From Nocardiopsis sp. FR4 (GTDB lineage: Bacteria > Actinomycetota > Actinomycetes > Streptosporangiales > Streptosporangiaceae), in the NCBI RefSeq assembly GCF_009830945.1, contig NZ_VWVV01000009.1:62001-126000 (forward strand): 64,000 nt of DNA, read 5' to 3'. Position 1 is the first letter of the stretch, and every line of letters starts with the position of its first letter. The notes under the pieces are model-generated. The model had not been told where the DNA came from. It was given only the letters and a program-made list of their open reading frames with translations, and searched no databases. Made by a program: the position numbers and the translations under genes. Positions 36,690 to 61,517 of the stretch are shown in pieces.

Positions 36690-37718
36690 ATGCGAACTGG
36701 GACAACCGTGCGTGCCGCCGCCCTCGGCGCCGCCGCACTCATGACGATCACCGCCTGCCAGAGCGGCGGCGAGGGGGCGGACGACTCGGGTGTCTCCCCC
36801 GCCGAGACCGACCTGACCGTGGTCACCGGTGTCTACCCCCTGGAGTGGCTGGCCCGGGAGGTCGGCGGGGAGCGGGTCTCGGTCACCCAGCTGACCGAGC
36901 CCGGCACCGAGCCGCACGACCTGGAGCTGACCGGCCGCCAGGTGGCCGAGGTCAGCGAGTCCGACATCGCCTTCTACGTCGGCGGCCTGCAGCCCGCCGT
37001 GGACCAGGCCGTCGAGCAGGAGGCCGCCGAGAGCGCCCTCGACGTCGCCGACATCGTCGAACTCCGTCCCGTGGACGAGGCCGAGGACGAGCACGCGGAG
37101 GAGGAGCACGGGCACGCGGACGAACACGCCGATGGGGCTGCGCACTCCGAGGAGGGCGGGGAGGAGCACGCCGAGGAGGAGGAGCACGACCACGGCGAGT
37201 ACGACCCGCACTTCTGGCTGGACGTGGACCTGATGGCCCAGGTGGCCCAGGCCCTCGGCGACCGCATGGCCGAGGTCCACCCCGGGGGCGCCGAGGACTA
37301 CGCCCGGAACGTGGAGGCCGTGACCGCCGAGTTGGAGGCGATCGGCCAGGAGTACGACGAGGGCCTGGCCTCCTGCGAGCACGACGAGGTCGTCGTCGGG
37401 CACACCGCCTTCTCCTACCTCACCCGGGCCTACGGGCTGGAGCAGATCGGTGTCAGCGGGGTGGACCCCGACAGCGAGCCCTCCCCCGCGCAGATCGCCG
37501 CGATCACCGACACCGTTCGCGAGCACGACATCAGCACCGTCTTCACCGAGCCGCTGATGCCCGCCTCCACCGCCGAGACCATCGCCGCCGAGACCGGCGC
37601 CCGGGTGGAGGTGCTCGACCCGCTGGAGGGGGTCACCGAGAACTCCCCCGGCGACGACTACCCCTCCGTCATGCGCGGCAACCTGGAGGCGCTGACCACC
37701 GCGTTGGCCTGCTCCTGA
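36690..37718 (+). CDS. znuA: ZnuA-type zinc-binding lipoprotein
   Basis: A 342-residue cluster A-I binding protein of a zinc ABC importer. Signal peptide with lipobox ITAC (Cys23). Metal ligands are expected at EPHDLEL, DPHFWLDV and VGHTAFSYL. Between the first two is the long His/Glu-rich loop seen in ZnuA (EEHGHADEHADG.., EEEEHDHGEYDPH), thought to act as a zinc sponge. ATG 36690 has only a weak ribosome site. The expected znuC and znuB genes do not follow; instead there is a stretch of homopolymer runs. A Zur-like box upstream predicts induction under zinc starvation. Confidence 0.9.
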   Translation: MRTGTTVRAAALGAAALMTITACQSGGEGADDSGVSPAETDLTVVTGVYPLEWLAREVGGERVSVTQLTEPGTEPHDLELTGRQVAEVSESDIAFYVGGLQPAVDQAVEQEAAESALDVADIVELRPVDEAEDEHAEEEHGHADEHADGAAHSEEGGEEHAEEEEHDHGEYDPHFWLDVDLMAQVAQALGDRMAEVHPGGAEDYARNVEAVTAELEAIGQEYDEGLASCEHDEVVVGHTAFSYLTRAYGLEQIGVSGVDPDSEPSPAQIAAITDTVREHDISTVFTEPLMPASTAETIAAETGARVEVLDPLEGVTENSPGDDYPSVMRGNLEALTTALACS

Positions 37719-53307: not shown

Positions 53308-54393
53308 TCAGCCCCGGGCGGCCTCGGCGCGGCGGATGCGGGTGATGGGAACCGGGAGCACGCACACCGGAACGGGGACGTCCAGACGGTGCCCCGTGTC
53401 GGCCGGAACGCCCGTGTCGGGGTCGATCCGCAGCGAGGCCAGCGAGTCCCCGTTCTGGGCCGCCACCACCAGGTGGTCGGGCTCCTCGCGGTGCCCGCGC
53501 ACGACGGTGAAGTTGCGCGGCCAGGCACCTCCCGCCGGGGTGTCGGCGACGTGCTCCAGGCGGGCGCCTCCGTCGCGGACGGCGAGGGTGGCGATCGAGT
53601 CGGCGCCCCGGTTGGACACGTACACGCAACCGCCGTGCACGAGGATCTCGGCGGGGAAGTTGTCCCCCGCGGCCTCCTCGCCGGTGGCGTGGACCGACCC
53701 CAGGTGCTCGCCGGCGCCCTCCCGGGCGTCCCAGCGCACCACGTGCACCCGTGAGTCCAGCTCACCGGCCACGTACACGTACTCCCCCGCCACCGCCGCG
53801 TGCCGGGGACCGGTGCCCGGGGGCAGCGCCACGGCGCCCGCCTGTGCGTCGCCGCGCAGGACGCGCAGCTCGTCGGTGCCCAGGTCGGCCACCAGGACGT
53901 GCCGGTCGTCGGGAGCGGCCGCGCTGTGCGCGTGCGGGCCCTCCTGGCGTTCGGTGACCGGGCCGCTCCCGGTGTGCGCGAGCTCCACCGGTCCGGCGGC
54001 GAACGCTCCGTCGCCGCCCAGGCCGTACACGGCGGCCACGCCGTTGGCGTAGTTGGTCACCACCAGCTCGGAGCCGCGCGCGAGCACGTGGCAGGGCGAC
54101 CCGCCTCCGGTGGCGGCCCGGCCCAGCTCGGTGAGCTCGGCCCTCCCGTCGACGCGGAAGGCGGTGACGGTGCCCTCGGCGCGCTCGTTGACCGCGTACA
54201 CCGTGGGCGGGTCCGCGTGGAAGGCCAGGAAGGAGGGACCCGGGGTGCGGGCGGCCACGCCCCCGTCCGCCATGTGGCCGGTGATGGGGTCGAACCAGAC
54301 CCGGTAGACGCCCTCGCCCTCCCCGGACGGGTCGGAGTCGGGGGTGTAGGTGCCCACGAGCAGCAGCCGCCGCCCGTCCCAGGAGTCGTCCAC
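53308..54393 (-). CDS. Lactonase-like seven-blade beta-propeller protein
   Basis: A 361-residue protein of the 6-phosphogluconolactonase (YbhE-type) family: LLLVGTYTPDSDPSGEGEGVY, PSFLAFHADPPTVYAVNE, PCHVLARGSELVVTNYANG, GPHAHSAAAPDDRHVLVADLG, GPRHAAVAGEYVYVAGE, PAEILVHGGCVYVSNRGADSI and a final PRNFTV. No signal peptide. Reaction is either hydrolysis of 6-phosphogluconolactone in the pentose-phosphate pathway or of another lactone. GTG 54393 has GGGG upstream. Confidence 0.85.
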   Translation of the reverse strand: MDDSWDGRRLLLVGTYTPDSDPSGEGEGVYRVWFDPITGHMADGGVAARTPGPSFLAFHADPPTVYAVNERAEGTVTAFRVDGRAELTELGRAATGGGSPCHVLARGSELVVTNYANGVAAVYGLGGDGAFAAGPVELAHTGSGPVTERQEGPHAHSAAAPDDRHVLVADLGTDELRVLRGDAQAGAVALPPGTGPRHAAVAGEYVYVAGELDSRVHVVRWDAREGAGEHLGSVHATGEEAAGDNFPAEILVHGGCVYVSNRGADSIATLAVRDGGARLEHVADTPAGGAWPRNFTVVRGHREEPDHLVVAAQNGDSLASLRIDPDTGVPADTGHRLDVPVPVCVLPVPITRIRRAEAARG

Positions 54394-54671
54394 CGGAATC
54401 CCCGTTTCCCTCGTCCTATGGCGTCAGTGGTCTGAACAGCCGGGCGCATGCTACAGGCACGGTGTTCCACCGCCCGGCTCCGGGATGCCGTTTCCGGTGA
54501 GCCGGACACGCCGGGTGAACTCCGCGGTGCCCGCTGCCGGAAGCGGGTCCGCTTCCCCGCCCCTCGGGCGTGCCCCGGCGGGCGACGGGACCTCCGCGGT
54601 CGGGTTCCCCGCGGTTGACGCCGTGGACGCGGACACGGTTGGCGGCCCGGGGACCGGGTAGTGGTCCGCGC

Positions 54672-55325
54672 ATGCTGCTAGTGAGACCGCCGGGCGTGTA
54701 CCGGGCACAGGAGGACACCGCGTTGCTCCGTGACGTGCTGCGCCAGCGCGGCCAGGTCGCCGGCCGTTCGGTCCTCGACGTCGGTTCGGGTACCGGGGCG
54801 CTGGGCATCGAGGCCTTCCGCAACGGCGCGGTCAGTCTCACCTCGATCGACCTGTCGCGGCGCTCCGTACTGGCGAGCTGGCTCAACAGCCGGCTGCACG
54901 GGGTCCCGGCGACGGTCCGGCGCGGTGACCTGTTCGCTCCCGTGGCCCCGCGCCGCTTCGACCTCGTGCTCGCCAACCCGCCCTACGTGCCCGCCGCCGG
55001 TCCGCTGCCGCCCCGCCACCGGATGGCGAGGTGCTGGGACGCGGGACCGGACGGACGGATCCTGTTGGACCGCATCTGCGCGGAGGCGCCTTCGGTGCTC
55101 AGCGAGGACGGCGCGCTGCTGCTCGTGCAGTCCGAGCTCGCCGACGGGCGGACCACCGTGGACCAGCTCAGGCGGGCGGGGCTGGTGGCCGAGGTCATCG
55201 CGAGGGCCCGCGTCCCGTTCGGGCCGGTCCTGCGGGCGCGTGCTCCGATGCTGCGCGCCCGCGGGCTGCTCGGCCCCGAGCAGGTGGAGGAGGAACTCGT
55301 GGTCATCGAGGCGCGCCATGGGTGA
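54672..55325 (+). CDS. HemK/PrmC-like SAM-dependent methyltransferase
   Basis: A 217-residue class I methyltransferase: substrate helix RAQEDTALLRDVL, SAM motif VLDVGSGTGALGIEA, acidic IDLS, and the N-P-P-Y catalytic motif (residues 102-105) that methylates amide or planar nitrogen. It resembles the short HemK2-type enzymes, which lack the N-terminal release-factor-binding domain. First gene of a four-gene unit; its stop overlaps the next start by 8 bases. The clustering suggests a small-molecule or peptide substrate rather than a release factor (inference). Confidence 0.85.
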   Translation: MLLVRPPGVYRAQEDTALLRDVLRQRGQVAGRSVLDVGSGTGALGIEAFRNGAVSLTSIDLSRRSVLASWLNSRLHGVPATVRRGDLFAPVAPRRFDLVLANPPYVPAAGPLPPRHRMARCWDAGPDGRILLDRICAEAPSVLSEDGALLLVQSELADGRTTVDQLRRAGLVAEVIARARVPFGPVLRARAPMLRARGLLGPEQVEEELVVIEARHG

Positions 55326-55533
55326 GGCCCGTCGCCGGGTCATCGTCACCGACGAGGGCCCGGTCCTCGTCTACGGCCCGACCGACGTGGAGATGCCCGA
55401 CGGAACACGCGTGCGCAGCGACCGGGCGGTCACCGCGCTGTGCGCGTGCGGCCGCAGTCGGCGCCGCCCGTTCTGCGACACCAGCCACCGTCGCCGCGTA
55501 CGCGGCGAGGAGGGGAAGGAGCACGCCCCGTGA
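55318..55533 (+). CDS. CDGSH iron-sulfur domain protein
   Basis: A 71-residue protein with one CDGSH-type motif: C42-x-C44-GRSRRRPF-C53-D-x-S-H57, binding a [2Fe-2S] cluster through three Cys and one His; the Gly of CDGSH reads Thr. It is all soluble, with no membrane anchor. Such proteins transfer electrons or clusters. The start overlaps the methyltransferase stop by 8 bases and its TGA overlaps the next GTG by 4 bases, so it probably supplies electrons or iron to the downstream oxidase. Confidence 0.85.
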   Translation: MGEARRRVIVTDEGPVLVYGPTDVEMPDGTRVRSDRAVTALCACGRSRRRPFCDTSHRRRVRGEEGKEHAP

Positions 55534-56531
55534 CCACGACGATGCTGGGGACGCCGACGCTTCCCGCGCCCCGCGGCCCGCTCTCCGGGGCGGTTCTGTC
55601 CGCACTGCGCGGAGACCGGCCCGAACTTCCCGACGTGGAGGAGTCCCCGCCCTACGGCGAGGACCTCCAGCTGGCGCTCTACTGCTGCTACGAGCTCCAC
55701 TATCGCGGGTTCCGGGGGGTCGACGCCGAACGCGAGTGGGACCCGGCGCTGCTGGCGTTCCGCGCCGGGTTGGAGAGGGCCTTCCTCGGTGCGCTCAGAG
55801 ACGACGTGCCCGCCGACGCGGACGTCGAGGGCGAGATCAGCGCACTCCTCGTCGAACACGTCGACGCGTTCGGCGTCTCCCACCACCTGCGCCGCCGCGG
55901 GGAGCTGTGGCAGCTGCGCGAGTACGTCGCGCACCGCTCGCTCTACCACCTGAAGGAGGCCGACCCGCAGACCTTCGTCATCCCGCGCCTGGACGGCCCG
56001 CCGAAAACCGCCCTCGTGACGGTGCAGCACGACGAGTACGGTTCGGGAGACCCCGAGCGGGCGCACTCCAGGCTCTTCGCCGACATGATGGTCGAGCTCG
56101 GCCTCTCCGACACCTATGGCGCCTATCTCGACTCCGCCCCCGCCGAAGTACTGGCCGAGGTCAACTTCATGTCGCTGTGCGGGCTGCACCGCGGGTTGCG
56201 CGCGGCTCTGATCGGGCAGTTCGCCACCGTCGAGCTCACCTCCTCCCCCGGTGCGGACCGGATGGTCAAGGCCATGCGGAGGCTGGGCTGCGGTCCGACC
56301 GCCCTGCGGTTCTACGCCGAGCACGTCGAGGCCGACGCGGTGCACGAGCAGCTCGTCCGGCGCGAGGTGATCGCACCGCTGCTGAGGGCCGAACCGGGGT
56401 TGGCCCCCGACGTCTCGTTCGGAATCCGCGGTAGCACGTTCCTGGCCGCCCGGTTGGAGGAGCGCCTGTTGCACCACTGGAACCACGGCGAGTCGAGCTT
56501 TCGCGACGGGTCGAACGCGGGGAGACCATGA
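55530..56531 (+). CDS. Haem-oxygenase-like di-iron oxidase (HDO-type)
   Basis: A 333-residue protein of the iron-containing redox enzyme family. Candidate metal ligands are arranged as in HDO enzymes: YCCYELHYRGF (Glu55, His57), VTVQHDEYGSGDPERAHSRLF (Asp168, Glu169, His179), VEL (Glu235), and FYAEHVEADAVHEQ (His265, Asp269, His272). Known HDOs (SznF, UndA, BesC, CADD) use a di-iron centre and oxygen to cleave or oxygenate amines, amino acids or fatty acids. The N-terminal 40 residues are variable. Substrate unknown. GTG 55530 is coupled (GTGA) to the CDGSH gene. Confidence 0.85.
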   Translation: MTTTMLGTPTLPAPRGPLSGAVLSALRGDRPELPDVEESPPYGEDLQLALYCCYELHYRGFRGVDAEREWDPALLAFRAGLERAFLGALRDDVPADADVEGEISALLVEHVDAFGVSHHLRRRGELWQLREYVAHRSLYHLKEADPQTFVIPRLDGPPKTALVTVQHDEYGSGDPERAHSRLFADMMVELGLSDTYGAYLDSAPAEVLAEVNFMSLCGLHRGLRAALIGQFATVELTSSPGADRMVKAMRRLGCGPTALRFYAEHVEADAVHEQLVRREVIAPLLRAEPGLAPDVSFGIRGSTFLAARLEERLLHHWNHGESSFRDGSNAGRP

Positions 56532-57529
56532 AACCGCCCGGACCGGCGGCGCGGGCCAGCGTCCTCCCGGTCGCCGACAGGGGCGGCACGGTGCCGGAGG
56601 ACGCGGTCGTGCGCGACTGCCTCCGGCGGACACCGCCCCGGCTGCCGCCCTGGCTCGGCTACGACGCGGTCGGCTCCGAACTGTTCGAACAGATCACCGA
56701 GCTGCCCACCTACTACCTGACCCGCGTGGAACGCGGCCTGCTGGAACGCCACTCCCCCGAGATAGCCGAGCTGCTCGCCTGCGGGCGGATCGCGGAACTG
56801 GGCAGCGGAAGCGCGAAGAAGACACGGCTGCTGTTGGAAAGCTGCGTGCGCCTGCGCGCGACCACCTACCTTCCGATCGACGTCGACCGGGGCATGCTGC
56901 GGTCCAGCGGCGCCGCGCTGTGCGCGGAGCTGGACCGGTTGGAGGTCACGGGCCTGTGGGGGCGCTACGAAGCCGGTCTCGACTGGCTGCGCACCCACCC
57001 GGGCGAGCCGCTCGCGGTCGCCTTCCTCGGCAGCAGCTTCGGCAACGCCACGCGCGGGGAGCGTGACGCGCTGCTCGGCGAGATCGCCCGCACCCTGGGC
57101 CCGGGTGAGGGCTTCCTGGTCTCCGCCGATATGGACAAAGACCGTGAGGCCCTGGAGACCTGCTACAACGATCCCGCCGGACACTCGGCCTTCGCCGACT
57201 TTCGGCTCAACTACCTCACCCAGCTCAACCGTCGCTACGGCTCCGCCTTCGTGCTCGACGACTTCGTCCCGGAGGCCTGTTACGACGCGGACACCTCCAC
57301 CGTGGAGGGACGCCTCCGTGCCCGAGCCGACCGGACGGTGCCCGTGCCGGGGCTCGGACTCACACTGCGCATACCGCGCGGGCACTTCCTCAACGTCGGC
57401 TACTCGGTGAAGTTCAGCGTCCAGCGGCTGACCCGCGAGGTGGGAGCGCACGGTTTCAGCCTCCAGGCCCAGTGGCGGGACTCCGAGACCCCGTACGGGA
57501 TCTTCCTCTTCCGCCGCCGCGAGACCTGA
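56528..57529 (+). CDS. EgtD-like N-methyltransferase
   Basis: A 333-residue SAM enzyme of the histidine N-alpha-methyltransferase (DUF2260/EgtD) family: YDAVGSELFEQITELPTYYLTRVE, motif I IAELGSGSAKKTRLLLE, PIDVDRGML, FLGSSFGNATRGE, NDPAGHSAFADFRLNYLTQLNR, and C-terminal TLRIPRGHFLNVGYSVKFS. EgtD trimethylates histidine in ergothioneine synthesis, but the other ergothioneine genes (egtA, egtB, egtC, egtE) are absent here, so the substrate may be a different amino acid or amine made by the upstream oxidase. ATG overlaps the HDO stop (ATGA). Confidence 0.85.
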   Translation: MKPPGPAARASVLPVADRGGTVPEDAVVRDCLRRTPPRLPPWLGYDAVGSELFEQITELPTYYLTRVERGLLERHSPEIAELLACGRIAELGSGSAKKTRLLLESCVRLRATTYLPIDVDRGMLRSSGAALCAELDRLEVTGLWGRYEAGLDWLRTHPGEPLAVAFLGSSFGNATRGERDALLGEIARTLGPGEGFLVSADMDKDREALETCYNDPAGHSAFADFRLNYLTQLNRRYGSAFVLDDFVPEACYDADTSTVEGRLRARADRTVPVPGLGLTLRIPRGHFLNVGYSVKFSVQRLTREVGAHGFSLQAQWRDSETPYGIFLFRRRET

Positions 57530-57566
57530 ACGGACGCCGCCGCCCGGGAACGCACGGCCCCGGGGC

Positions 57567-60500
57567 CTACCCGCGCTCGGCGGCCCTGACCGCCTCGACG
57601 GCCTTGAGGATGCGCTTGTCGGAGACGGGGTAGGCGGTGCGCAGCTCCTGGGCGAACAGGCTGACCCGGTACTCCTCCAGCATCCAGCGCAGCTCCCGGA
57701 CGTCCGGGTCGGCGGCGCGTCCGGCGGGGAGGGCCCCCCGCACCCCGGCGACGGCCTGGCGCATCTGCTCGACCTTGGACATGTTCACCTGGTCGCGGCG
57801 CGGGTTCTCCGGCAGCTTGTCCAGCCGTACCTCCACCCCGCGCAGGTAGCGGTGCAGGTGGTCCAGGCGGGCCAGGCCGGTGCGGGTGACGAAACCGTCC
57901 CCGACCAGGTCGCCGAGCTGGCCCTGCACGTCGTTGAGCGAGGGCAGCACCGCCAGCGAGGTGGTGCCCTTGACCTTCTTGGACACCTTGCGCCACTGCA
58001 CGAGGACGCGGGCGGACTTGTCCAGGACCTCCTGGAGGGTGTCACCGAGGTCGGCGCGCACCCGCTCGGAGAGTTTGTGGAAGTCCTCGCCGTTCCACAC
58101 CGGCCCGCCCTCACGGGCCAGCAGGTGGTCGACGGCGGCCATCTCGGCGTCGGCGAGCATCTTCTTGACCGAACCGTGCGGGTTGTCGGCCAGGGCGAGC
58201 TTGTCGGGGTTGTTCAGCCCCTTGCTGACCACGTGCGCCACGGAGGGCACGGTGAGCAGCAGCAGGCGGCGGGTGCCCGCCCACATGGCGGCGCGCTGCT
58301 CGGGGCGGGTGTCGAAGATGCGGATCGCGACGCTGTCGCCCTCGTCCACCAGCGCCGGGTAGCCCTTGACCTTGGGGCCCAGGGCCTTGCGCTCCAGGGT
58401 CTGCTCCAGCGGGCCGAAGTCCCAGGAGGTGAGTCCCTTCTTCTCCACACCCCTGGCCTCGGCGGAGATGGCCTCGCGCAGGCGCGGCTTGAGCTTGGCC
58501 CGCAGCCGCTCCAGGTCCTTGTCCTCGGCCAGGGTGCGCTGGCGGTCGTCCACGGCGCGGAAGGTGATGCGCAGGTGGTCGGGCACCTTCGCCAGGTCGA
58601 AGTCGGACGGCCGGATCCGGTCGCCCGCCATCTGGGTGAGCTCCGCGGCCAGCGCCTCGGCCAGCGTCCCCTCGTAGGGGGCCAGTCCGGACAGCGCCCG
58701 GGCGGCGTTGTCGGGCACGGGCACGAAGTTGCGGCGCAGCGGCTTGGGCAGGGAGCGGATGAGCGCGGTGACCAGCTCGGCGCGCAGCCCCGGGATCTGC
58801 CAGTCGAACCCGGTGTTCTCCACCTGGTTGAGGAACTTCAGCGGGATGTGCGCGGTGACGCCGTCGGAGTCGCTGCCCGGCTCGAACTGGTAGGTGAGCG
58901 CGAACGCGAACGCGCCCTGGCGCCACACGTCGGGGTAGTCGTCCTCGCTGATCGCCCCGGCGCCCTCGTTGATGAGCTCCTCGCGGGTGAAGTCCAGGAG
59001 CTTGGGGTCGGTGCGCCGGGCCTGCTTCCACCAGGCGTCGAAGTGGGCGGCCGAGACCACCGAGTCCGGGACGCGGGCGTCGTAGAAGGCGAAGAGGGTC
59101 TCGTCGTCCACGACGATGTCGCGGCGCCGAGCCCGGTGTTCGAGGTCCTCCACCTCCTCCAGCAGCCTGCGGTTGTCGTGGAAGAAGTGGTGGCGGGTCT
59201 CCCAGTCGCCCTCGACCAGGGCGCGGCGGATGAACAGCTCCCGGGACAGCTCGGGGTCGATCCTGCCGTAGGAGACCTTGCGCTGCACGACGATGGGCAC
59301 GCCGTAGAGGGTGACGCGCTCGAAGGCCATGACGGCGCCGCGCCTGCGCTCCCAGTGCGGCTCGCTGTACTGACGCTTGACGATGTCCCCGGCCAGCTCC
59401 TCGGCCCACTCCGGTTCGATCCGGGCGACCATGCGGCCCCAGAGCTTGGAGGTCTCCACCAGCTCGGCGGCCATCACGTAGCGGGGCTGCTTCTTGAACA
59501 GCGCCGACCCGGGGAAGATCGCGAAGCGGGCGCCGCGCCCGCCGAGGTACTCGTGCTTCTCGGGGTCCTTGAGGCCCACGTGGGAGAGGAGACCGGCCAG
59601 CAGAGACATGTGCACGCCGCGGGGGTCGGCGGCCTCCTCGCGCGGGGCCGGGACCTCCACGTCCATGGAGCGCAGCACCTGTTTGAGCTGGCCGTGGATG
59701 TCCTGCCACTCGCGGACGCGCAGGTAGTTGAGGTACTCGTCGCGGCACAGCCTGCGGAACTGGTTGCCCGACAGCTCCCGCTGCTTCTCGCGCAGGTAGT
59801 TCCACAGGTTGAGGAAGGCCAGGAAGTCCGACTCCTTGTCGGCGAACCGGGCGTGCGCCTGCTGGGCCTGCTGCTGCTTGTCGGAGGGGCGCTCACGCGG
59901 GTCCTGGATGGACAGGGCCGAGGTGATGACCAGGACCTCGCCCAGGCAGTCGCGCTGTTCGGCCTCCAGGATCATCCGGCCCAGGCGCGGGTCCACCGGC
60001 AGCTGGGCCAGGCGGCGGCCCGTCCGGGTGAGTCTGCGCTTGGCGCCCGAGGGGTCGGGGTGCAGGGCGCCCAGCTCGGTGAGGAGGTTGACGCCGTCCT
60101 TGATCTGGCGGTGGTCCGGGCCGTCCACGAACGGGAAGGCGGCCACGTCGCCCAGGCCCAGGGCGGCCATCTGCAGGATGACCGAGGCCAGGTTGGTGCG
60201 CAGGATCTCGGGGTCGGTGTACTCGGGGCGGGAGAGGAAGTCCTCCTCCGAGTACAGCCGGATACAGATGCCCTCCGACACGCGGCCGCAGCGGCCCTTG
60301 CGCTGATTGGCCGAGGCCTGCGAGACGGCCTCGATGGGCAGGCGCTGGACCTTGGTGCGGTGGGAGTAGCGGGAGATGCGCGCGGTGCCGGGATCGATGA
60401 CGTACTTGATGCCCGGCACGGTCAGCGAGGTCTCTGCGACGTTGGTGGCCAGCACGATGCGGCGGCCTCTGTGGGAGGACCACACGCGTTTCTGCTCGGC

Positions 60501-61517
60501 GACCGACAGCCGCGCGTACAGCGGGAGGACCTCGGTGTTCGGGAGCTTCTTCTTCTCCAGGGCCTCGGCGGTGTCGCGGATCTCGCGCTCGCCGCTGAGG
60601 AAGACCAGCACGTCGCCGGGGGCCTCGCGGCCGAGCTCGTCGACGGCGTCCAGGATGGCCTGGGTCTGGTCGCGGTCGGTGCCCCCGCCCGGGTTTCTCT
60701 CCTCGGGGTCGAGGATCTCCTCCGAGATCGGCCGGTAGCGCACCTCCACGGGGTAGGTGCGGCCGGAGACCTCGACGATGGGGGCGTCGTCGAAGTGGCG
60801 GGAGAAGCGCTCGGGGTCGATGGTGGCGGAGGTGATGACCACCTTCAGGTCCGGGCGCCTGGGCAGCAGCTGCTTGAGGTAGCCCAGCAGGAAGTCGATG
60901 TTGAGGCTGCGCTCGTGGGCCTCGTCGATGATGAGCGTGTCGTACTGGCGCAGCATCCGGTCGTGCTGGATCTCGGCCAGCAGGATGCCGTCGGTCATGA
61001 GCTTGACCAGCGTGCTGTCGCTGGAGGAGTCGGTGAAGCGGACCTTGTAGCCGACCGTCTCGCCCAGGGGCGTGCCGATCTCCTCGGCGATGCGCTCGGC
61101 GACCGTGCGGGCGGCCAGCCGCCGGGGCTGGGTGTGGCCGATGGTGCCCATGACGCCGCGACCCAGCTCCAGGCAGATCTTGGGCAGCTGGGTGGTCTTT
61201 CCCGAGCCGGTCTCACCGGCGACGATGACGACCTGGTGGTCGCGGATGGCCTCGGCGATGTCCTCGCGGCGGGCGCTGACCGGGAGCGCCTCGGGGTAGG
61301 TGAGCTCCGGCACCGCCTCGCGGCGCAGCGCGACGCGCAGGACGGCCTCGTCGATGTCCGCGGCGATCTGGGCGGTGACGGCGGCGCGGCGGCGCTCGTC
61401 GCGGATCTTGGCCAGGCCGTCGATACGCCGACGGAGCCGGTGGCGGTCCGAGGGCATGAGGTCGCGCAACCGGGAACGCAGTGTGTCCGCGGCGGGCGCG
61501 GGCGTGGTGGTGCTCAT
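57567..61517 (-). CDS. hrpA: HrpA-type DEAH-box RNA helicase
   Basis: A 1316-residue helicase of normal family length. Motifs: GETGSGKTTQ (I), HTQPRRLAARTVA (Ia), IIDEAHERSLN (DEAH, II), SATID (III), LATNVAETSLTVPGI (V) and QRKGRCGRV (VI), then HA2/OB-fold sections and the long C-terminal DUF3418-type region. ATP-driven unwinding of RNA in mRNA processing or ribosome rescue. ATG 61517. Converges with the EgtD-like gene. Confidence 0.95.
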   Translation of the reverse strand: MSTTTPAPAADTLRSRLRDLMPSDRHRLRRRIDGLAKIRDERRRAAVTAQIAADIDEAVLRVALRREAVPELTYPEALPVSARREDIAEAIRDHQVVIVAGETGSGKTTQLPKICLELGRGVMGTIGHTQPRRLAARTVAERIAEEIGTPLGETVGYKVRFTDSSSDSTLVKLMTDGILLAEIQHDRMLRQYDTLIIDEAHERSLNIDFLLGYLKQLLPRRPDLKVVITSATIDPERFSRHFDDAPIVEVSGRTYPVEVRYRPISEEILDPEERNPGGGTDRDQTQAILDAVDELGREAPGDVLVFLSGEREIRDTAEALEKKKLPNTEVLPLYARLSVAEQKRVWSSHRGRRIVLATNVAETSLTVPGIKYVIDPGTARISRYSHRTKVQRLPIEAVSQASANQRKGRCGRVSEGICIRLYSEEDFLSRPEYTDPEILRTNLASVILQMAALGLGDVAAFPFVDGPDHRQIKDGVNLLTELGALHPDPSGAKRRLTRTGRRLAQLPVDPRLGRMILEAEQRDCLGEVLVITSALSIQDPRERPSDKQQQAQQAHARFADKESDFLAFLNLWNYLREKQRELSGNQFRRLCRDEYLNYLRVREWQDIHGQLKQVLRSMDVEVPAPREEAADPRGVHMSLLAGLLSHVGLKDPEKHEYLGGRGARFAIFPGSALFKKQPRYVMAAELVETSKLWGRMVARIEPEWAEELAGDIVKRQYSEPHWERRRGAVMAFERVTLYGVPIVVQRKVSYGRIDPELSRELFIRRALVEGDWETRHHFFHDNRRLLEEVEDLEHRARRRDIVVDDETLFAFYDARVPDSVVSAAHFDAWWKQARRTDPKLLDFTREELINEGAGAISEDDYPDVWRQGAFAFALTYQFEPGSDSDGVTAHIPLKFLNQVENTGFDWQIPGLRAELVTALIRSLPKPLRRNFVPVPDNAARALSGLAPYEGTLAEALAAELTQMAGDRIRPSDFDLAKVPDHLRITFRAVDDRQRTLAEDKDLERLRAKLKPRLREAISAEARGVEKKGLTSWDFGPLEQTLERKALGPKVKGYPALVDEGDSVAIRIFDTRPEQRAAMWAGTRRLLLLTVPSVAHVVSKGLNNPDKLALADNPHGSVKKMLADAEMAAVDHLLAREGGPVWNGEDFHKLSERVRADLGDTLQEVLDKSARVLVQWRKVSKKVKGTTSLAVLPSLNDVQGQLGDLVGDGFVTRTGLARLDHLHRYLRGVEVRLDKLPENPRRDQVNMSKVEQMRQAVAGVRGALPAGRAADPDVRELRWMLEEYRVSLFAQELRTAYPVSDKRILKAVEAVRAAERG

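Follow-up and report, generated by a model that had tools for sequence, protein, structure and literature searches.

A four-gene operon of Nocardiopsis sp. FR4 joins a haem-oxygenase-like di-iron oxidase to a CDGSH protein and two methyltransferases in a candidate stress-induced biosynthetic module

In the streptozotocin pathway, SznE methylates a guanidine before N-oxygenation by SznF, a haem-oxygenase-like di-iron oxidase (HDO). SznF acts on N-omega-methyl-arginine and has a 3H/4C metal site with an extra glutamate, a layout estimated for about 25% of HDOs; the 3H/4C enzymes SznF, CmlI and AurF are named as N-oxygenases (PMC13108848). In mangotoxin biosynthesis, the second step of the HDO MboA needs a dedicated redox partner, MboB (PMC13185094), and in Acinetobacter baumannii the HDO DtpC protects against desiccation-linked oxidative stress (PMC13232832). 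The present analysis concerns an operon of Nocardiopsis sp. FR4 at positions 54672 to 57529 of a stretch of 64,000 nucleotides (contig NZ_VWVV01000009.1, positions 62,001 to 126,000, forward strand), referred to here as the window, in which an HDO is combined with a CDGSH iron-sulfur protein, a HemK-like methyltransferase and a methyltransferase related to EgtD of ergothioneine biosynthesis (egtABCDE). An HDO with a redox partner (MboA/MboB), an HDO in stress (DtpC) and an HDO with a methyltransferase (SznE/SznF) are already known separately; the pairing of CDGSH with HDO, together with an altered EgtD clade in a stress-type operon, appears to be undescribed in the literature searched. No paper treating a CDGSH protein jointly with an HDO, a di-iron enzyme, a methyltransferase or a sigma regulon was found in the open-licence PMC literature, and the opinion of a first-pass annotation that no described system has this set agrees with the matches listed there, among which no description was found.

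The four genes lie on one strand and overlap by 8, 4 and 4 bases, exactly as first annotated, and the four family assignments made at that time were borne out by profile matches from Pfam and NCBIfam. The operon and its predicted promoter are laid out as follows.

54637..54661, + strand: predicted SigB/SigF-type promoter GGTTGG-N13-GGGTAG (-35 box 54637-54642, -10 box 54656-54661)
54672..55325, + strand: HemK2/MTQ2-like small SAM (S-adenosylmethionine) methyltransferase (TIGR00537 102.7 bits; NPPY)
55318..55533, + strand: single-motif CDGSH [2Fe-2S] protein (PF09360 61.7 bits)
55530..56531, + strand: HDO, SznF-type 3H/4C by alignment (PF14518 187.5 bits)
56528..57529, + strand: EgtD-like probable amino-acid N-methyltransferase with an altered side-chain pocket (PF10017 278.3 bits)

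The ratio of nonsynonymous to synonymous substitution rates (dN/dS) against four relatives is 0.22-0.53 across all four genes, which are therefore under purifying selection. The preferred reading, given a chance just short of even, is that the four genes form one stress-induced biosynthetic module which would oxidise and methylate an amino-acid-like molecule.

The pairing of the HDO with the CDGSH protein was followed in 100 genomes, the window's own and its relatives, taking an E-value below 1e-45 as a strong HDO match. Strong HDO genes occur in 43 of these genomes, CDGSH genes in 50 and both in 42 (Fisher p 1e-18; the 100 relatives, like the 80 loci and the promoter rows treated below, are interrelated, and the p-values are not those of independent events). 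The sole strong-HDO genome without CDGSH (G084) is 75% complete. Within the window's genus, 22 of the 40 genomes carry an HDO, and the identical 22 carry any CDGSH gene (p 9e-12); in 19 of these the HDO is of the window type, and in the other 3 it is more distant. Counted per gene, a CDGSH gene lies within 1.4 kb of 44 of the 45 strong HDO genes versus none of the 13 weaker HDO matches (43 distances were computed; a second gene each in G036 and G052, and all 13 weak matches, were read by eye). When 159 genomes were drawn more widely from the phylum, 28 proved to carry the HDO, with 30 genes of which one is in two pieces, and 56 to carry CDGSH; as judged by eye, CDGSH lies within about 1.2 kb of 20 of the 30 HDO genes, or of 14 of 24 when six genomes already in the first set are removed. 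The earlier suggestion that the CDGSH protein is the HDO's own iron-sulfur partner is thus supported by co-occurrence at the level of both genome and neighbourhood. That CDGSH might be exclusive to HDO everywhere is ruled out by the same phylum counts (56 genomes against 28) and by the 8 of the 100 genomes that have CDGSH without a strong HDO. The window's genome has no CDGSH match besides that of the operon; it also holds a second, distant HDO-like stretch of 30% identity (G000:C28:62060-62545, L170).

The CDGSH protein itself has complete Cys-Cys-Cys-His ligands, with C42, C44, C53 and H57 kept in at least 97% of 65 rows. It shows the type 4 trait of a single motif with Lys or Arg after the ligand His (CACGRSRRRPFCDTSHR), and like the type 4 single-motif proteins it carries the basic residue directly after that histidine (CDTSHR). 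Among actinobacterial CDGSH proteins, type 4 predominates (PMC3174974); the main text of that paper on type 4 uses neither 'operon' nor 'gene neighbor' and therefore, as far as the main text goes, offers no partner for the actinobacterial CDGSH proteins. A close analogy for the partnership is MboA/MboB, in which, as in the operon, an HDO stands beside a dedicated redox gene (PMC13185094); MboA differs in being a 3H/3C enzyme that forms an alkyne on a tripeptide, and MboB is likened to the CDGSH protein by description, not by family.

The gene neighbourhood was surveyed at the best 80 of 84 HDO loci found in named genomes. These loci were retrieved with peptide patterns from the window HDO, and the sample leans to close kin because of it; the nearest loci are of Nocardiopsis, plus one of Streptomonospora. 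By profile matches, within 4 kb of the HDO, CDGSH is present at 64 of the 80 loci, a HemK-like gene at 60, both at 57 and an EgtD-like gene at 27. The 57 loci with HemK-like (K), CDGSH (C) and HDO (H) genes fall into nine arrangements, E denoting the EgtD-like gene: K-C-H-E on one strand (22), K and C reversed and flanking H (11), K-C-H (9), H followed by C and K reversed downstream (5), E-K-C-H (4), H-K-C (3), and three arrangements seen once each, among which is K-C-H with a reversed E. All four genes are on the same strand at 26 of the 80 loci (the 22 K-C-H-E and the 4 E-K-C-H); among the 22, the EgtD-like gene is split over two frames in 2 and cut by a contig end in 1, and 1 has a hemerythrin gene ahead of it. 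The neighbourhoods are rearranged yet persistent, which therefore argues for functional coupling, and the doubt raised at first annotation, that the genes might not be conserved together in relatives, came out false: they are conserved together and move as a block. Chance neighbourhood is ruled out by the varying gene order and the block transfer, and an obligatory four-gene set by the scarcity of the EgtD-like gene. Two copies of the operon occur in one assembly of Nocardiopsis salina YIM 90010 (L041 and L067), both with frame-split EgtD-like genes, and a plasmid of Streptomyces sp. NBC_01237 (L171:4986-7980) carries E-K-C on one strand with the HDO facing on the other.

A tree of the HDO (77 of 100 rows, by a quick method) places the window protein inside a clade of 41 rows with an SH-aLRT of 99. 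A HemK-like neighbour accompanies 37 of these 41 rows versus 12 of 36 outside, some of the latter weak, and EgtD-like neighbours are confined in the tree to Nocardiopsidaceae and Pseudonocardiales rows of the window clade, the Streptomyces plasmid being a further case beyond the tree rows. In other clades, a GCS2/YbdK carboxylate-amine ligase (PF04107) or a weakly GT2-like protein (one member matches PF00535 at its cut-off, another matches no family) adjoins the HDO, and such alternative fourth genes sometimes overlap by 4 bases. The core is HDO plus CDGSH, then the HemK-like gene; the EgtD-like gene is an add-on. Several loci are distinctive. Three of the same genus (L142, L143 and L144 in G001, G004 and G032) encode a different HDO (46-49% identity) beside a weakly GT2-like and a CDGSH gene on the opposite strand, and no EgtD-like gene was found nearby. 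Pseudonocardia versions of the operon include one with a ferritin-like gene near it (L056:11152-12147; PF00210, below the Pfam cut-off) and one with a hemerythrin gene within it (L050:9040-9540). On a plasmid of Kitasatospora sp. NBC_00039 (L173:1875-5933), a YbdK ligase, a dimethylargininase, HDO, CDGSH and HemK2 are annotated consecutively, with STAS, ATP-binding and CsbD genes immediately upstream, a lead to a stress island.

Comparison with solved structures bears on the chemistry. The best solved relatives of the HDO by sequence include SznF, HrmI and RohS, at 25-33 bits. Its residues E143, E169, H179, E235, H265, D269 and H272 align with SznF 189, 215, 225, 281, 311, 315 and 318, the offset being 46 at all seven positions, and these SznF residues are taken to be its seven metal ligands. 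All seven HDO residues are nearly invariant (80 or 81 of 81 rows each). Read from this alignment, the HDO carries the complete SznF-type 3H/4C seven-ligand set, which favours N-oxygenation, short of proof. With SznE/SznF, the operon shares a methyltransferase beside an HDO and seven metal ligands in register, and methylation of a planar nitrogen is also a plausible step for its NPPY enzyme. The match to SznF is weak (32.8 bits) and the operon HDO is without the cupin domain; unlike SznE/SznF, the operon has a HemK2-like methyltransferase, with a CDGSH partner and a stress-type promoter in addition. An arginine-type substrate is a possible lead from the SznE/SznF logic and from the one cluster with dimethylargininase; as proof of such a substrate the dimethylargininase was set aside, since it was met at 1 of 104 loci searched. 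All three solved relatives named above are described as N-oxygenases (PMC13232832, PMC13108848).

The HemK-like protein scores 102.7 bits against TIGR00537 (HemK2/MTQ2; cut-off 87), has 217 residues with NPPY at 102-105, and is too short for the N-terminal domain of PrmC. Score, motif and short form all place it in HemK2/MTQ2, and its nearest solved structure is N6AMT1. The genome's PrmC is separate from the operon (C6:191724, 233.3 bits, above its cut-off). Close HemK-like forms, defined by an E-value below 1e-35 and counted by eye, amount to 28 genes in 27 of the 100 genomes, and 26 of the 28 adjoin an HDO; the exceptions are in G017, at a contig end with no HDO found, and in G081, 223 kb from the HDO.

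The EgtD-like protein has the PF10017 fold in common with EgtD, but it scores 240.3 bits against TIGR03438, under the equivalog cut-off of 290.9. The genome has a genuine EgtD (373.9 bits; 37% identity to the EgtD-like protein), which adjoins EgtC, EgtB and EgtA on G000:C1, all above their own cut-offs; egtA, egtB and egtC, the other egt genes sought, are thus located with the genuine egtD and not beside the EgtD-like gene. A tree of 25 HDO-linked EgtD-like and 30 EgtD proteins splits the two sets at 100/100, with one long branch (L068). For the former set, a length filter dropped the split or cut L034, L041 and L067 and the E-value dropped the fragment L054, and two of the 25 rows are identical; the 30 EgtD rows are the best-scoring loci among 82 genomes with a PF10017 match. 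All 25 rows of the EgtD-like clade retain Tyr39, Phe47, Tyr56, Asn166 and Tyr206, and 23 of them Ser284, while Met252 is replaced by Gly (21) or Ala (4) and Glu282 by Gly in all 25. The window protein has Gly at both positions and the plasmid protein of L171 has Ala at the Met252 position and Gly at that of Glu282, whereas 30 of 30 genuine EgtD proteins keep all eight residues, Met252 and Glu282 included. Glu282 and Met252 shape the imidazole pocket of EgtD, and changing both reportedly lets EgtD accept tryptophan, although the literature search found no text to this effect. Asn166, Tyr206 and Ser284, the backbone-holding residues, are retained in the window protein; in EgtD structures Tyr206 and Ser284 contact the carboxylate and Asn166 the amine (PMC8593015). 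The substrate of the EgtD-like enzyme is, to judge by these residues, likely an L-amino acid whose side chain is not an imidazole.

The pocket residues are lost in 25 of 25 rows, and the view that the operon does not serve ergothioneine therefore stands; with a separate egtABCD in the genome, an ergothioneine variant is ruled out. That view had been set against one particular combination, an EgtD-like protein with full EgtD residues and the egt genes elsewhere. Its second half was found, in that the genome has egtA, egtB, egtC and a genuine egtD at another place, but its first was not, the window protein being without Glu282 and Met252.

The predicted promoter, GGTTGG-N13-GGGTAG, lies ten bases ahead of the first ATG. 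Across 18 Nocardiopsidaceae loci (window included), the conserved portion of the upstream DNA is the last 35 bases or so, in the order of a GATTG- or GGTTG-type box, CGGGTA and a start codon about 10 bases on; GGGTA occurs in all 18 and the full pattern in 17. The spacing of G-N-N-T, 12-16 bases and GGGTA near the start makes the element SigB/SigF-type by sequence, the SigB-type consensus being GNNTN-N14-16-GGGTAY (PMC5402319), and the SCO1566p promoter resembles the window motif (PMC8346170). GGTTN14-16GGGTAG has 2 matches in the window versus a mean of 0.10 in shuffles; the second, at 37658 on the minus strand, is inside a coding region and was taken as chance. Outside the Nocardiopsidaceae, with rows that are related and start codons that are uncertain, GGGTA stands upstream of 54 of 136 first core-run genes; the corresponding counts are 68 of 612 for other genes at the same loci and 10 of 104 for core genes in an internal position. 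The full pattern stands upstream of 33 of 136 first genes versus 25 of 612 others. A leaderless transcript start is likely from the short spacing, and control of the operon by a general-stress sigma factor may be inferred. A further likeness is that to DtpC, also an HDO tied to stress protection; it is drawn by description and not by sequence, and DtpC differs in having a two-gene operon with the catalase KatE (PMC13232832).

Alignment of the window with six sites that are without the operon (blastn) marks out the mobile unit, which lies between two genes on the strand opposite to the operon.

54459..57561, no strand: inserted block with the entire operon
53308-54393, - strand: lactonase-type gene, upstream neighbour
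57567-61517, - strand: hrpA, downstream neighbour

Window homology ends at 54458 in two of the six sites and at 54374-54484 in the other four, and restarts at 57546-57587, so that the breakpoints are near 54459 and 57561, between the lactonase gene and hrpA; two of the sites hold about 0.8-1.2 kb of other DNA. The transferred unit is therefore the four genes with about 210 upstream bases. A same-genus search for both flanking genes in 20 genomes found the operon between them in two (G000 and G018); by eye, the flanking-gene matches are about 110-170 bases apart in G025, G031, G037 and G039, and the operon is located elsewhere in the genome in G005, G006, G025 and G030. The flanks of the Nocardiopsidaceae loci form at most 13 groups upstream (18 loci), a count that rests on a blastn threshold by which diverged orthologous flanks could be missed, and 11 downstream (17 loci). 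The operon has been transferred between genomes as a block. In G018, 59 bases upstream of the operon (L166:533-591) are 85% identical to the 3' end of hrpA, which is also in its normal place there; the stretch is a possible insertion scar.

In the proposed module, a general-stress sigma factor would transcribe the operon as a leaderless message, and the CDGSH [2Fe-2S] protein would pass electrons to the HDO. The HDO would activate O2 and oxygenate an amino-acid-like substrate at a nitrogen (or carbon). In the same molecule, the NPPY enzyme would methylate a planar nitrogen, be it that of an amide, a guanidine or an amidine, and the EgtD-like enzyme, in this lineage, would methylate the alpha-amine, perhaps giving a betaine. 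The cell would thus produce, in parallel with ergothioneine, a small molecule that protects it. The oxidation and N-methylation pathway put forward in the first-pass annotation is thereby supported in part: the substrate and reaction of the HDO are presumptive, and the EgtD-like gene (27 of 80 loci) has turned out to be accessory and not core. That account had also missed the promoter, which points to stress.

Several observations weigh against the proposed module. None of the HDOs studied so far is said to require a protein effector (PMC13108848). Ten of the 30 HDO genes of the phylum draw are without a nearby CDGSH gene, as are 16 of the 80 HDO loci within 4 kb (8 of the 16 titled Acidimicrobi-, and some on short contigs); the CDGSH gene is therefore not an obligatory neighbour across the whole HDO family, and the pairing is strong, not universal. 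In some close relatives the EgtD-like gene is absent (G024) or split in both copies (G036), and weak partial HemK-like matches among the 60 (L086, L097 and L103) may be other methyltransferases. Outside the Nocardiopsidaceae, the full promoter pattern is present at only the 33 of 136 first genes given above, and the control genes in that comparison included internal operon genes, not only first genes.

The role of the CDGSH protein could also be that of an iron or iron-sulfur cluster source for assembly or repair of the HDO, with the rest of the pathway unchanged. HDO di-iron sites are often labile (PMC13108848), CDGSH/NEET proteins are tied to iron metabolism in the literature, and the genome-level co-occurrence is compatible with either role; electron donation is nevertheless simpler for a [2Fe-2S] protein beside an electron-requiring, O2-activating enzyme and has the precedent of MboA-MboB as a dedicated redox partnership, and the iron-source role is considered unlikely. 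A more radical departure, direct protection, dispenses with the small molecule, the HDO scavenging oxygen species or holding iron and the HemK-like enzyme modifying a protein. The stress-type promoter motif would suit it, as would the ferritin-like (PF00210, below cut-off) and hemerythrin genes near some loci and the fact that relatives of MTQ2 and N6AMT1 methylate proteins, and the authors of the DtpC work leave scavenging and iron sequestration open (PMC13232832). It has to contend with an EgtD-like methyltransferase with intact backbone residues and a YbdK/GCS2 ligase beside the HDO in other clades, both small-molecule enzymes, and with the full 3H/4C ligand set of the HDO, and is judged unlikely to the same degree.

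The HemK-like enzyme alone might be a passenger of the operon that methylates a release factor or a ribosomal protein, as its TIGR00537 score and N6AMT1 similarity would allow; with PrmC present elsewhere in the genome and nearly all close-form genes (26 of 28 in the 100 genomes) adjoining an HDO, this is improbable. An even smaller probability is given to a small antibiotic-type gene cluster of secondary metabolism. The patchy presence (window type in 19 of the 40 same-genus genomes), the block transfer and the fact that characterised HDOs are mostly in amino-acid biosynthetic pathways (PMC13185094) fit such a cluster, but the promoter motif is of SigB/SigF type, and an ABC-transporter ATPase family that recurs within about 8 kb at 14 of the 80 loci does so at varying distances. 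Moreover, the transferred block consists of the four genes only, and therefore no transporter, resistance gene or regulator moves along.

The proposed stress-induced module leads to a wider proposition, offered tentatively and on balance improbable in its full extent: actinobacterial single-motif CDGSH proteins would include the dedicated electron donors of one HDO subfamily, and this pair would be central to a mobile pathway, induced by general stress, whose product would be an N-oxygenated and N-methylated amino-acid derivative, here a trimethyl betaine, and a stress metabolite in parallel to ergothioneine. The fourth enzyme of the pathway would be interchangeable between lineages: an EgtD-like methyltransferase, a GCS2 ligase or a weakly GT2-like enzyme. 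The HDO subfamily described here, which co-occurs completely with CDGSH genes across a single genus, connects two questions: what naturally donates electrons to most HDOs, and what bacterial CDGSH proteins do. Should the product of the module be a stress betaine, it would join ergothioneine as a protective metabolite. Likewise, the EgtD-like clade with its losses of Met252 and Glu282 may readily supply amino-acid betaine synthases whose choice of substrate is new.

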